A DNA stretch of 16,846 nt from Nitrospinae bacterium RIFCSPLOWO2_12_FULL_45_22. Its GTDB lineage: Bacteria > 2-12-FULL-45-22. Under the pieces are notes generated by a model. The model was not told the DNA's origin. It searched no databases and was given only the letters and a program-made list of their open reading frames with translations. The position numbers and the translations under genes are program-made. How positions within the stretch are numbered: position 1 is the first letter of the stretch; every line of letters starts with the position of its first letter. The stretch is from assembly GCA_001803565.1 (NCBI GenBank), contig MHDQ01000017.1:1-16846 (forward strand). The letters are read 5' to 3'. Below are positions 11,720-16,846 of the stretch, piece by piece.

Positions 11720-11778
11720 ATAGAACGCTCGAGATCAGCGGGGCGTATTAACGCATCCGCTGGATTGAGTTGTTAGGC
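11720..11778 (-). other. attC-like site of an empty mini-cassette
   Basis: Minus strand: R'' GCCTAAC (11772-11778), inner arms CTCAATCCAGCGG and CCGCTGATCTCGAG pairing well with unpaired bases, and R' GTTCTAT (11720-11726). The right core is degenerate, as might occur at the decayed end of an array. Only 66 bases separate it from the next attC, with no gene between them. Confidence 0.6.
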
Positions 11779-11844
11779 AATGTTATCTTTCATTTGCAAC
11801 TCAATACTCAAGTCTGACCCCAAACTTCCATTCCCTCATCTCTC

Positions 11845-11903
11845 GTGTAACTTCGTGGCGCAGGCGCAACGGAATAGCGGTCAGGTGGAGCGCCTTGTTA
11901 GCT
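11845..11903 (-). other. attC-like site of the PIN toxin-antitoxin cassette
   Basis: Minus strand: R'' AGCTAAC (11897-11903), then AAGGCGCTCCACCTGACCGC; the far arm GCGCC and a degenerate core GTTACAC (11845-11851). The stem is shorter than in the next site at 12536. The R'' side matches that site almost base for base over about 35 bases (shared GGAATAGCGGTCAGGTG), so the two are relatives. The left half has diverged or recombined. Confidence 0.6.
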
Positions 11904-12535: not shown

Positions 12536-12607
12536 GGCTAACGTCAAAGCTCACCTGGCGCTATGGAGCGCAGCGGAATAGCGGTCAGGTGCAGCGCCAT
12601 GTTGGGC
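12536..12607 (-). other. attC site of the 77/76-aa cassette (72 bp)
   Basis: Minus strand: R'' GCCCAAC (12601-12607), inner arms GCACCTG and CAGGTGAGC pairing, a variable loop with a GCGCTCCATAGCGC-like hairpin, and R' GTTAGCC (12536-12542). It begins 12 bases after the stop of the 76-aa gene and is followed 18 bases later by the PIN toxin start codon. Confidence 0.8.
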
Positions 12608-13123: not shown

Positions 13124-13210
13124 GCCCAACGACAAAAATGAGCCGCCGCGAAACGACGCTGTCTAAATCAAAGCACGCTGTATGCGGTCGGCTCCAGTGA
13201 ATTGTTGGGT
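13124..13210 (-). other. attC site of the 181-aa cassette (87 bp)
   Basis: Minus strand: R'' ACCCAAC (13204-13210), arms GGAGCCGACCGC and GCGGCGGCTC pairing with one mismatch, a central variable loop, and R' GTTGGGC (13124-13130). It is the longest attC here and one of the clearest. The following cassette's start core GTTGGGC exactly mirrors that cassette's own R'' box at 12601-12607. Confidence 0.85.
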
Positions 13211-13912: not shown

Positions 13913-13971
13913 GCCCAACTTTCGGTTCAGCGGCGGCGCTTTGCGCCGTCTGCTGGAACCGGTTGTTAGCT
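13913..13971 (-). other. attC site of the katA-sodC-cupin unit (59 bp)
   Basis: Minus strand: R'' AGCTAAC (13965-13971), arms GGTTCCAGCAGACGGCGC and GCGCCGCCGCTGAACC forming a long stem with unpaired bases on one side, a loop of AAA, and R' GTTGGGC (13913-13919). It lies 11 bases after the stop of the catalase remnant. It is the best-formed attC in the window. Confidence 0.88.
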
Positions 13972-13982
13972 GACAGTTTTGT

Positions 13983-14100
13983 CTATTTCTGAACTTCGCT
14001 TAGAGGGATGCCTAGTGCCATGGCCACTCCTTCGCCATAAGCCGGGTCGGCTTTCAGGCAGTTGCCGATGTGGTAATCCACCATCATTCCAGCACCGAAC
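13983..14100 (-). pseudogene. C-terminal remnant of a second catalase
   Basis: The last 30-odd codons of a catalase remain: [20 protein letters not shown], then GIPLSEVQK and a TAG stop at 13983-13985. The intact katA in this window ends [20 protein letters not shown] and GIPLSEIPK, so homology is certain. The two differ at many codons, so it is not a recent duplicate. In frame, an ATG pair exists at 14082-14087, but no ribosome binding site is evident and the heme-binding core is absent. The upstream boundary is blurred in the 19 bases after the cupin stop. It marks a deletion that removed most of a neighbouring catalase gene. Confidence 0.85.
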
Positions 14101-14119
14101 AACTCCTTCGATGAAGGTC

Positions 14120-14509
14120 TCAGTGATGTTCTGCGGCCTCCGCTGCATCTGCTTCGGCTTTCGTCTTATGCACTGTGCCGTCAGGATGATTGGGCGGGGT
14201 ATAAATCGTGTAGAGCCTGACCGGTTTAGTCGAAGACGTATTGATCACATTGTGGAATATGCCGGCAGGCACCACAACCGCGTCACCGTCACCGACAAGG
14301 TGTTCCTCCTTGTCATTGAAGACGAATTTGGCATTGCCTTCTTCGATGCGGAAGAACTGGTCGACGTTTGCATGCACCTCGTTGCCGATCTCCTCATTCG
14401 GCTGCAGACACATCACCACGAGCTGGCTGTATTTGCCGGTGAATAACACCTGACGGAAGAAGCTGTTATTTAATGTTGCTTTCTCAATAGGTCCAACATA
14501 GCCTGTCAT
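14120..14509 (-). CDS. Single-domain cupin protein, 129 aa
   Basis: A small cupin (double-stranded beta-helix) likely to bind one metal ion. Motif 1 is EIGNEVHANVDQFFRIEEG (about 40-58), a known variant where the usual HxH...E is replaced by H-x3-DQ. Motif 2 is PAGIFHNVIN (about 81-90), giving the second histidine. The tail from about residue 112 is Ala/Glu/Lys-rich and helical. A strong AAGGAGG lies seven bases upstream of the ATG. It follows sodC by about 80 bases and precedes the catalase remnant. The substrate is unknown; as neighbour of catalase and superoxide dismutase a role in oxidative or metal stress is plausible. Confidence 0.9.
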   Translation of the reverse strand: MTGYVGPIEKATLNNSFFRQVLFTGKYSQLVVMCLQPNEEIGNEVHANVDQFFRIEEGNAKFVFNDKEEHLVGDGDAVVVPAGIFHNVINTSSTKPVRLYTIYTPPNHPDGTVHKTKAEADAAEAAEHH

Positions 14510-14547
14510 TGTCTTTACCTCCTTTTTGCAGAACAGGATTTTAGGTG

Positions 14548-14572
14548 CTCCCTCCCCGATTAAGGAAGGGAG
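14548..14572 (-). terminator. Hairpin between sodC and the cupin gene (weak terminator or processing site)
   Basis: Minus strand CTCCCTTCC, loop TTAATC, then GGGGAGGGAG: a stem of about nine pairs with one mismatch, starting 20 bases after the sodC stop. No T-run follows, so it is more likely an mRNA-stabilising or attenuating hairpin than a complete Rho-independent terminator. Confidence 0.35.
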
Positions 14573-14591
14573 TCCCTTGGATTAATAGTTC

Positions 14592-15116
14592 TTACTTAAC
14601 TACGCCACATGCTGCCCGGACACCACCGCCGCCAAGCGGGGCCGGTGTGTCGGCATAATTGTCGCCTCCAACATGAATCATAAGCGATCTTCCTTTGATG
14701 TCAGCTGCCTTCAGGCGCGGGGCAAGGACAGGAAGTGTTGCCTTCCCATCAGCAGACACGTAGAGGGCGGGCAGGTCCCCGAGATGGCCGTTGCCATAAG
14801 GTCCTTCGTGTTTGCCCGCGTTTGCAGGGTCGTAATGGCCGCCAGCAGCAAGCGCCGGGACTGCTTTCCCGTCTCCCTTCATGGCATGGGAGCAATCCGG
14901 TTTGTCATGCACATGGAACCCATGCAGACCGGGTGCAAGGTCGGTCAACTGCGGCGTCAGGATAAGTCCATATTTGCTGTCGGATGCCGTGATGGTGCCG
15001 ATTTCATTACCTATACCTTGTTCGGTCACCAGCGAGACCTTGACAATGACATCCTCGGCAAAGACATAACCGGCAAACAACAGAATGAAGGATAAAACAA
15101 GTAAAGCTTTCAACAT
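14592..15116 (-). CDS. sodC: Secreted Cu-Zn superoxide dismutase
   Basis: It dismutates superoxide to oxygen and hydrogen peroxide in the periplasm or outside the cell. I take the ATG at 15116 (174 aa) because AAGGAGGAG lies just upstream and the resulting start is a clean signal peptide, MLKALLVLSFILLFAGYVFA, cut before ED. Expected copper ligands are His68, His70, His94 and His148; zinc ligands are His94, His103, His111 and Asp114. Cys75 and Cys170 should form the disulfide, and Arg167 guides superoxide. All key residues are present. It follows katA by 42 bases, so the enzyme making peroxide and the one destroying it are co-transcribed. The gene is GC-rich relative to the housekeeping block. 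Confidence 0.95.
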   Translation of the reverse strand: MLKALLVLSFILLFAGYVFAEDVIVKVSLVTEQGIGNEIGTITASDSKYGLILTPQLTDLAPGLHGFHVHDKPDCSHAMKGDGKAVPALAAGGHYDPANAGKHEGPYGNGHLGDLPALYVSADGKATLPVLAPRLKAADIKGRSLMIHVGGDNYADTPAPLGGGGVRAACGVVK

Positions 15117-15158
15117 AGCGTTCTCCTCCTTAAATTTAATGATTTGCATTCACTGCAA

Positions 15159-16622
15159 CTATTTGGGTATTTCACTTAACGGTATGCCAAGCGCGTCAGC
15201 TACCCCCTTGCCGTAATCAGGGTCAGCCTTAAGGCAATTGCCGATGTGACGGATATGTATCTCCCGCGGCGCGTCCTTGATAGCTCGGGCGGTGTTCGCG
15301 AAGAGGAGCGCCTGCTTTTCGGGGCCTATCAGGCGGAAGAGCAGGCCGGGCTGAGTGTAGTAATCATCATCGTCTTCGCGGAAATTCCAGTGGTCTGCAG
15401 CCCCCTCCAGCGCCAGGGGCGGTTCGGCGAATTCCGGCTGCTGCTGCCATTCCCCGTAACTGTTGGGCTCATAGCCCAGCGTGCTGCCATAATTGTCGTC
15501 AACCCGCATGGCTCCGTCGCGGTGATAGCTGTGGTAAGGGCAGCGGGGCGCATTGACCGGAATTTGGTGGTGGTTCACGCCGAGCCGGTAGCGCTGAGCG
15601 TCGCCGTATGAAAAGAGCCGTCCCTGCAGCATCTTGTCGGGTGAAAAGCCGATGCCGGGCACGATGTTGGCCGGGTTGAAGGCCGACTGCTCGACCTCGG
15701 CGAAGTAGTTCTCAGGGTTGCGGTTCAGTTCGAAGACACCCACCTCTATAAGAGGGTAATCCTTCTTGAGCCAGACCTTGGTGAGATCGAAGGGATGGAA
15801 GCGGTATTTTGCCGCGTCCTTTTCCGGCATTACCTGTATGAACATGGTCCAGAGGGGAAAGTCTTTCTTCTCGATGCTCTCATACAGGTCGCGCTGGTGG
15901 CTTTCCCGGTCTTTGCCGATAATCGCCTCTGCCTCTTCATCGGTGAGGTTCTTGCTCCCCTGCTGAGTCTTGAAGTGAAACTTGACCCAGTACCGTTCAT
16001 TCTTTGCATTAATGAAGCTGAAGGTGTGGCTGCCGAAACCGTGCATGTGGCGGTAGGAAGCGGGAATGCCCCGGTCGCTCATGACGATGGTGACCTGGTG
16101 CAGCGCCTCGGGCAGTGATGTCCAGAAATCCCAGTTGTTCTTGGCGCTGCGCATATTGGTGCGTGGATCGCGTTTCACGGCGTGGTTGAGGTCGGGGAAT
16201 TTCAGCGGATCACGCATGAAGAATACCGGCGTGTTGTTGCCCACCAGGTCCCAGTTGCCTTCCTCAGTGTAGAACTTCATGGCAAAGCCCCGGATGTCGC
16301 GCTCCGCATCCGCCGCACCTCGTTCCCCGGCCACAGTGGAGAAGCGGACGAAGAGATCGGTCTTCTTGCCGATTTTGGAAAAAATCTTCGCTTTGGTGTA
16401 ACGGGTGATGTCGTGGGTAACAGTGAAGGTGCCGTAAGCACCAGAACCCTTGGCGTGCATTCTCCGCTCGGGGATGACCTCCCGGTCGAAGTGGGCGAGC
16501 TTTTCCAAGAACCAGACATCCTGCAGCAGCATCGGGCCGCGCGGCCCGGCTGTCATGACATTCTGATTGTCTGGGACAGGTGCCCCGGCGTTGGTGGTCA
16601 ATTTCTTCTTCTCGTCTTTCAT
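15159..16622 (-). CDS. katA: Monofunctional heme catalase (clade 3 type)
   Basis: It decomposes hydrogen peroxide to water and oxygen. The 487-aa length is that of small-subunit catalases. The distal histidine is His56 in [13 protein letters not shown], the distal Asn is Asn129 in [12 protein letters not shown], and the heme-ligating Tyr is Tyr339 in [14 protein letters not shown]. The core is complete, ending with [20 protein letters not shown]. There is no signal peptide, so it should be cytoplasmic. AAAGGAGAAAG precedes the ATG. Only 37 bases separate the start from the group II intron 3' end and no promoter is visible there, so transcription must come from within or beyond the intron. It is followed by sodC (42 bases). 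GC is higher than in leuS-nusB, consistent with separate acquisition. Confidence 0.97.
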
Positions 16623-16654
16623 GGTCTTTCTCCTTTCGGGTTTTGATTTGGTTC

Positions 16655-16660
16655 AGCTAA
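16655..16660 (-). other. Cassette core half-site TTAGCT at the intron junction
   Basis: The minus strand reads CCCGATTAGCTGAACC across the junction. TTAGCT is the six-base cassette 5' end predicted from R'' AGCTAAC at 13965-13971. The TT could belong to either intron or exon, so the splice point is within a base or two of 16658-16660. Confidence 0.5.
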
Positions 16661-16846
16661 TCGGGATAGGGGGGAGCCTCACGACCCCCCTCCTCCCACA
16701 CCACCACTGCATTCGGATCACGAACAGGGCGGTTCGGTAGATTACTCTGGTCCTATGGACCAGCCGGGTGTTCAGTCAGAATGGCGCAACGACCAATTCG
16801 CTTGCCCTCTTCGGACAGGCCACCACACATATAGTGCCGGTGTAAT
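16660..16846 (-). mobile_element. Group IIC intron 3' end (domains V and VI), running off the right edge
   Basis: Minus strand from 16735: GAACCGCC opens a domain V hairpin (16700-16735) with CGC in the triad position, as in group IIC introns. A four-pair upper stem TTCG/CGAA has a two-base TG bulge on its 3' side, and the helix closes with GGTGGT then GTG. Domain VI (16662-16697) is a GC-rich stem, AGGGGGG opposite CCCCCCT, with a likely bulged branch-point A in CCTATCCC, and the intron ends near CCCGATT. One unpaired T lies in the lower domain V stem and the loop has five bases, so the ribozyme may be weakened. The stretch 16740-16846 has no long frame I can assign to the maturase. Confidence 0.72.

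Follow-up and report, generated by a model that had tools for sequence, protein, structure and literature searches.

Introduction

Integron gene cassettes generally carry a single gene (PMC8876359). More than one gene under one attC site is found in fused gene cassettes such as blaOXA-10/aadA1 (PMC8876359), and a route by which cassettes could be made with the help of group IIC-attC introns has been proposed (PMC7923331). These introns are recognised by bottom-strand insertion at TTGT/T of the R'' core; one top-strand case, from Enterobacter cloacae, is cited in the same article (PMC7923331). No report of a catalase or superoxide dismutase cassette was found in the open-access literature, as far as this was covered.

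The locus described here lies in a window of 16,846 bases (the whole stretch of DNA analysed). It shares with integron gene cassettes a TTRRRY-type start, an R'' core complementary to that start, genes in array orientation, and an array with a divergent intI remnant, but differs from them in holding three genes and a gene remnant in 2.7 kb, and in its antioxidant content: a core stress enzyme is the cargo, unlike resistance or toxin-antitoxin genes. It bears on the origin of integron cassettes and on the ways in which they acquire additional genes, with a putative starting form (a katA cassette), an enlarged form, and the scar between them available for letter-by-letter comparison.

Sequence data and comparisons

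The window is the start of contig C17 (21,795 bases), which runs beyond it, in a fragmented metagenome-assembled genome (321 contigs, 3.67 Mb, 85% complete); the comparison collection includes one further genome from the same order. Relatives were surveyed as the best 80 katA loci in species genomes of many phyla (81–90% identical), and further cassettes were found with the 3' end of a Smithella katA cassette as query, across Smithella's phylum and order. The attC finder is blind to orientation, so the directions of the genes and of intI, and the arm carrying the bulges (L''), were used to assign it. Agreement between cassette starts and R'' cores was evaluated for 14 cassettes in three arrays (C17, C304, and Smithella), with partners permuted in 20,000 trials.

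Borders and gene content of the unit

On the minus strand, the order is katA, sodC, cupin gene, catalase 3' remnant, attC1 (Table 1). KatA contains what we take to be catalase motifs, recognised by eye. SodC is assigned by NCBIfam NF007628 (199 bits, cut-off 165) to the E. coli-type enzyme and has a signal-peptide-like N-terminus; its true start is probably at 15116 (MLKALL..., after GGAGGAG) rather than 15149. The remnant encodes 30 C-terminal catalase residues at 13986–14075, with 80% identity to katA (E 1.7e-8).

Table 1. Features of the katA-sodC-cupin unit, the adjoining intron, and the array that follows (window coordinates).
Feature	Coordinates	Strand	Basis or remarks
Group II intron, 3' part, in R' core of preceding attC, cassette orientation	16660..16846	-	sequence; exon join
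Complete gene cassette (TTAGCT ... attC G), 2,742 bp	13919..16660	-	start complements own R'' 6/6; no internal attC
TTAGCT cassette start, right half of core GTTAGCT	16655..16660	-	sequence
katA leader with GAAAGGAG ribosome site	16623..16654	-	common to Smithella katA cassette
katA, heme catalase, 487 aa	15159..16622	-	PF00199 (Pfam Catalase, E 4e-196), PF06628
sodC, exported Cu/Zn superoxide dismutase	14592..15149	-	PF00080 (Sod_Cu, E 7e-31); NF007628
Small cupin-domain protein, 129 aa	14120..14509	-	PF07883 (Cupin_2, E 8e-16)
3' remnant of second, diverged catalase gene	13983..14075	-	protein and nucleotide comparison
attC1 of katA-sodC-cupin cassette	13913..13971	-	R'' AGCTAAC, R' GTTGGGC
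attC2, cassette with exported 181-aa protein	13124..13210	-	attC search
attC3, cassette with two small ORFs	12536..12607	-	attC search
attC4, PIN-domain cassette, R' degenerate	11843..11903	-	sequence
attC5, array end	11720..11778	-	attC search

At both ends, the unit from 16660 to 13919 is delimited as a single integron gene cassette would be. The TTAGCT start, 33 bases ahead of katA at the end of the intron, is an exact complement of the unit's own R'' core AGCTAAC (6/6), and the final six bases of attC1 (13918–13913) are part of the next cassette. The bottom strand of attC1 folds with a z-score of -4.66, better than 200 of 200 shuffled sequences, and the position of its bulges, on the L'' arm, is the one that minus-strand cassettes should show. 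Inside the unit no other attC-like sites were found, down to a permissive score of 3.5. The probability of TTAGCT arising by chance in the 35-position leader is about 0.009. Across the 14 cassettes, the start is a perfect match to its own R'' in 10, this one included, compared to a mean of 1.8 with permuted partners (10 was never reached; p<5e-5), and 78 of 84 letters match, compared to 59.8. What places TTAGCT far above chance is the missing attC half on the far side of the intron, together with the recurrence of the GTTAGCT-leader junction ahead of katA in other genomes, both considered below. An earlier note on this DNA had predicted from attC1 that TTAGCT would be the cassette start, and had taken the 2.7-kb unit with its catalase, superoxide dismutase, and cupin to be a single cassette; the first is borne out by the exact R'' complement, the upstream attC half, and katA cassettes with the same start, and the second by both borders and the gene content.

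The intron and the preceding attC site

The intron extends past an N gap (C17:16847-16854), which is inside it and flanked on both sides by a 22-base repeat, to about C17:17516; its 5' part matches Rfam group-II-D1D4-3. The far side, including the upstream attC half, could be seen because C17 extends past the window. In minus-strand reading the 5' exon is CCCCAAC...CTCAACCGT, and joining the exons (...CCGT + TAGCT), by scaffolding across the N gap, yields a complete attC, CCCCAAC...GTTAGCT, with R' GTTAGCT. The splice point is GT|TAGCT: the intron ends with the first T of the window's TTAGCT, and the 5' exon restores the same T. The restored attC belongs to a cassette encoding an HNH-Dam methylase, whose start TTGGGG complements its own R'' CCCCAAC. 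With the exons joined, the katA-sodC-cupin cassette is thus preceded by another attC, to the extent that the scaffolding across the gap is correct.

Like group IIC-attC introns, this one is inserted at GT|T of an attC core, but it is in top-strand (cassette) orientation and in R', rather than bottom-strand at R''; its reverse transcriptase is not assembled. In a katA locus of another genome, L212 (L231; G535:C205:3057-3127), the R' core of the katA attC is likewise interrupted at GT|T by the 5' end of a top-strand group II intron, with core position and orientation identical to those in the window.

katA cassettes in other genomes

Nearly all of the best 80 katA loci lack attC sites and are ordinary genes. 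The exception is Smithella sp. UBA2180 (L062), with the order opposite-strand intI, two ORFs, attC ending in GTTAGCT, leader, katA, attC. Its IntI is intact (409 bits, cut-off 265), its TTAGCT and leader are identical to those of the window at 34 of 38 positions, and its 3' attC is nearly identical to attC1. The search with the Smithella 3' end yielded a second complete example, L208 (genome G503), where GTTAGCT-katA-AGCTAAC attC is perfect at both ends and part of an array with further attC sites; L209, with attC-GTTAGCT-katA, in which the 5' junction is present and the 3' end lost; L212, with katA and a 3' attC; and decayed katA cassettes in L155, L210, and L216. L155 is from outside Smithella's order, its genome having been matched in the phylum search and being absent from the order search. 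The L062 and L208 cassettes share with the window the TTAGCT start, the leader, katA (85%), and an AGCTAAC attC; they differ in carrying katA only, in having an intact upstream attC, and in lacking the intron. TTAGCT thus stands ahead of katA in intron-free loci as well, so the possibility that it is generic intron exon sequence can be set aside. The source genome appears to lie outside Smithella's phylum, so katA cassettes would span at least two phyla, a peroxide-defence gene apparently being exchanged among distantly related bacteria and packaged here with passenger genes.

The three-gene unit flanked by attC was found only in the source genome. Neither sodC nor a cupin gene is near katA in any of the best 80 katA loci, no katA is near the best sodC or cupin relatives, and in 297 genomes of Smithella's phylum the sod and cupin relatives are at best 62–64% identical, none of them beside katA. 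The operon without attC borders, which the earlier note had raised as a possible finding in relatives, was not seen; no relative has the operon at all. In the one other genome of the order, where an empty site was sought, the flanking helicase is not recognisably present. Plasmid records contain katA alone, none covering 80% of the cassette, with sodC matches under 60%. IMG/VR contains no catalase cassette and no exact attC1 pattern, the only catalase relatives (36–37%) being on viral contigs L127–L130.

As to a mobile peroxide and superoxide defence module, the idea holds in part: katA alone recurs as a cassette elsewhere, with both ends in a different array in L062 and L208, but the katA cassettes of other genomes carry neither sodC nor cupin and the three-gene form is in none of them. 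Mobility of the unit as a whole is presumed; katA, sodC, and the cupin gene would move jointly if an integron integrase acted on the attC bottom strand.

Two attC-like sequences downstream of other katA genes may be mentioned. In a Hippea metagenome-assembled genome (L066, 2137–2195) the sequence resembles attC1 with the R' core lost, possibly a stranded former cassette; that in L083 has no cores and was rejected.

Origin of the three-gene form

The remnant and katA itself have different affinities along their lengths. The last 87 nt of the remnant share 71 positions (82%) with the Smithella cassette katA and 62 (71%) with the window's katA. Over residues 1–60, the window's KatA agrees at 97% with the Smithella cassette and at 82% with a Geobacteraceae locus (L047), whereas for residues 421–487 the values are 67 and 82%; as a whole, the gene groups with Geobacteraceae (L047) and Aminicenantes katA in a tree, with support 98. 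A breakpoint test within katA gave a borderline result against the Smithella sequence (p=0.08); the signal was strong only with a non-cassette katA, L050 (p<0.0005, break near nt 66). From the remnant, the katA-end identities, and the tree, the leader, 3' remnant, and attC make up a frame of the Smithella-cassette kind, and the filling (sodC, the cupin gene, and most of katA) is of another.

We consider it quite likely that this is one cassette in a decayed integron, in which the interior of a katA frame was replaced by a katA-sodC-cupin segment and an intron arrived later. The starting point would have been a katA cassette of the type present in several genomes (GTTAGCT, short leader, katA, AGCTAAC-type attC). 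A katA-sodC-cupin segment of a different lineage would have taken the place of most of its katA and made the cassette longer, conceivably in a single step with one crossover within the 5' portion of katA and an illegitimate joint after the cupin gene, leaving the 3' end of the old catalase stranded ahead of attC1. The last event would be the insertion of a group II intron a short distance ahead of katA, within the core of the preceding attC. On these sequence comparisons recombination is the likely route of growth, and sodC and the cupin gene seem to have been added locally.

The main rival to replacement is a cassette fusion, in which neighbouring katA, sodC-cupin, and second katA cassettes merged, losing the attC sites between them and the bulk of the second katA. 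Fusion of cassettes through attC loss is documented (PMC8876359), and a deletion reaching into a downstream katA cassette should leave just such a catalase remnant beside its own attC. But there is no trace of an attC between katA and sodC (42 nt to the likely sodC start) or between the cupin gene and the remnant, so that here, unlike in described fused cassettes, the joint is marked by part of a gene and not by part of an attC; and the N- and C-terminal parts of katA resemble different lineages. We regard it as rather unlikely.

Two further explanations concern the borders themselves. The intron could have made or carried the junction, by insertion at a terminator-like site upstream of katA with the attC joined later by recombination (the IIC-attC route). 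Such a route has its proponents, as noted in the Introduction, and in L212 an intron 5' end follows a katA attC at this very core position. The GTTAGCT-leader-katA junction is intron-free in L062, L208, and L209, however, so the intron came after the junction, and this explanation is very improbable. Still less credit is given to chance borders, in which a chromosomal katA-sodC-cupin operon of the usual kind has, by coincidence, an intron on one side and an unrelated attC on the other: most katA relatives are indeed plain chromosomal genes without attC, and the operon is present once in the data, but the core complementarity is exact, the attC is restored across the intron, and an identical junction and a nearly identical 3' attC are present in the Smithella katA cassette. 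Given the other katA cassettes, it is largely refuted.

Points against replacement within a katA frame are the single occurrence of the three-gene unit, the borderline breakpoint result with Smithella, the scaffolded exon join, and the broken local integrase. In addition, the katA tree requires at least 4–5 changes of cassette label, which means that more than one katA allele turned into a cassette or that alleles were exchanged. More tentatively, and with the balance somewhat against it, catalase cassettes might form a recurring cross-phylum family in anaerobes and sediment bacteria that grows by homologous recombination with chromosomal katA operons. If this were true, whole stress operons could become cassette cargo with no new attC made.

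Possible function

Judging from the predicted proteins, the product is likely a two-compartment oxidative-stress module, in which exported SodC would convert superoxide to H2O2, KatA would destroy H2O2, and the cupin might have an accessory role. The leader is only about 33 bases long, so katA expression must come from upstream. Outward promoters have been reported on group IIC-attC introns (PMC8876359), and the intron is possibly the source of katA expression here.

The remaining array

Beyond the HNH-Dam methylase cassette is one further cassette, followed by integron integrase fragments (C17:21414-21766) that are divergent, carry a frameshift and a stop, and are truncated where the contig ends; a functional intI beside the array is therefore lacking on C17. 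Intact integron integrases are found elsewhere in the same genome, on C243 and C304. The array is best explained as a decayed chromosomal integron.

Contig C304 (L207) combines its intact integrase with at least six attC sites, and could supply integrase in trans. A very long inverted-repeat attC-like element (L046 10040–10240; C17:21040-21240) lies in the interval from the intI remnant to the first cassette. At the other end of the array, the attC4-attC5 interval (11843–11720) is very short, with no ORF, and may be an empty cassette. Part of a second, different group II intron (Rfam group-II-D1D4-6) is found at the left end of the contig (window 310–567, minus strand), with a core-like motif, TTGTTAGG, nearby at about 665–672.
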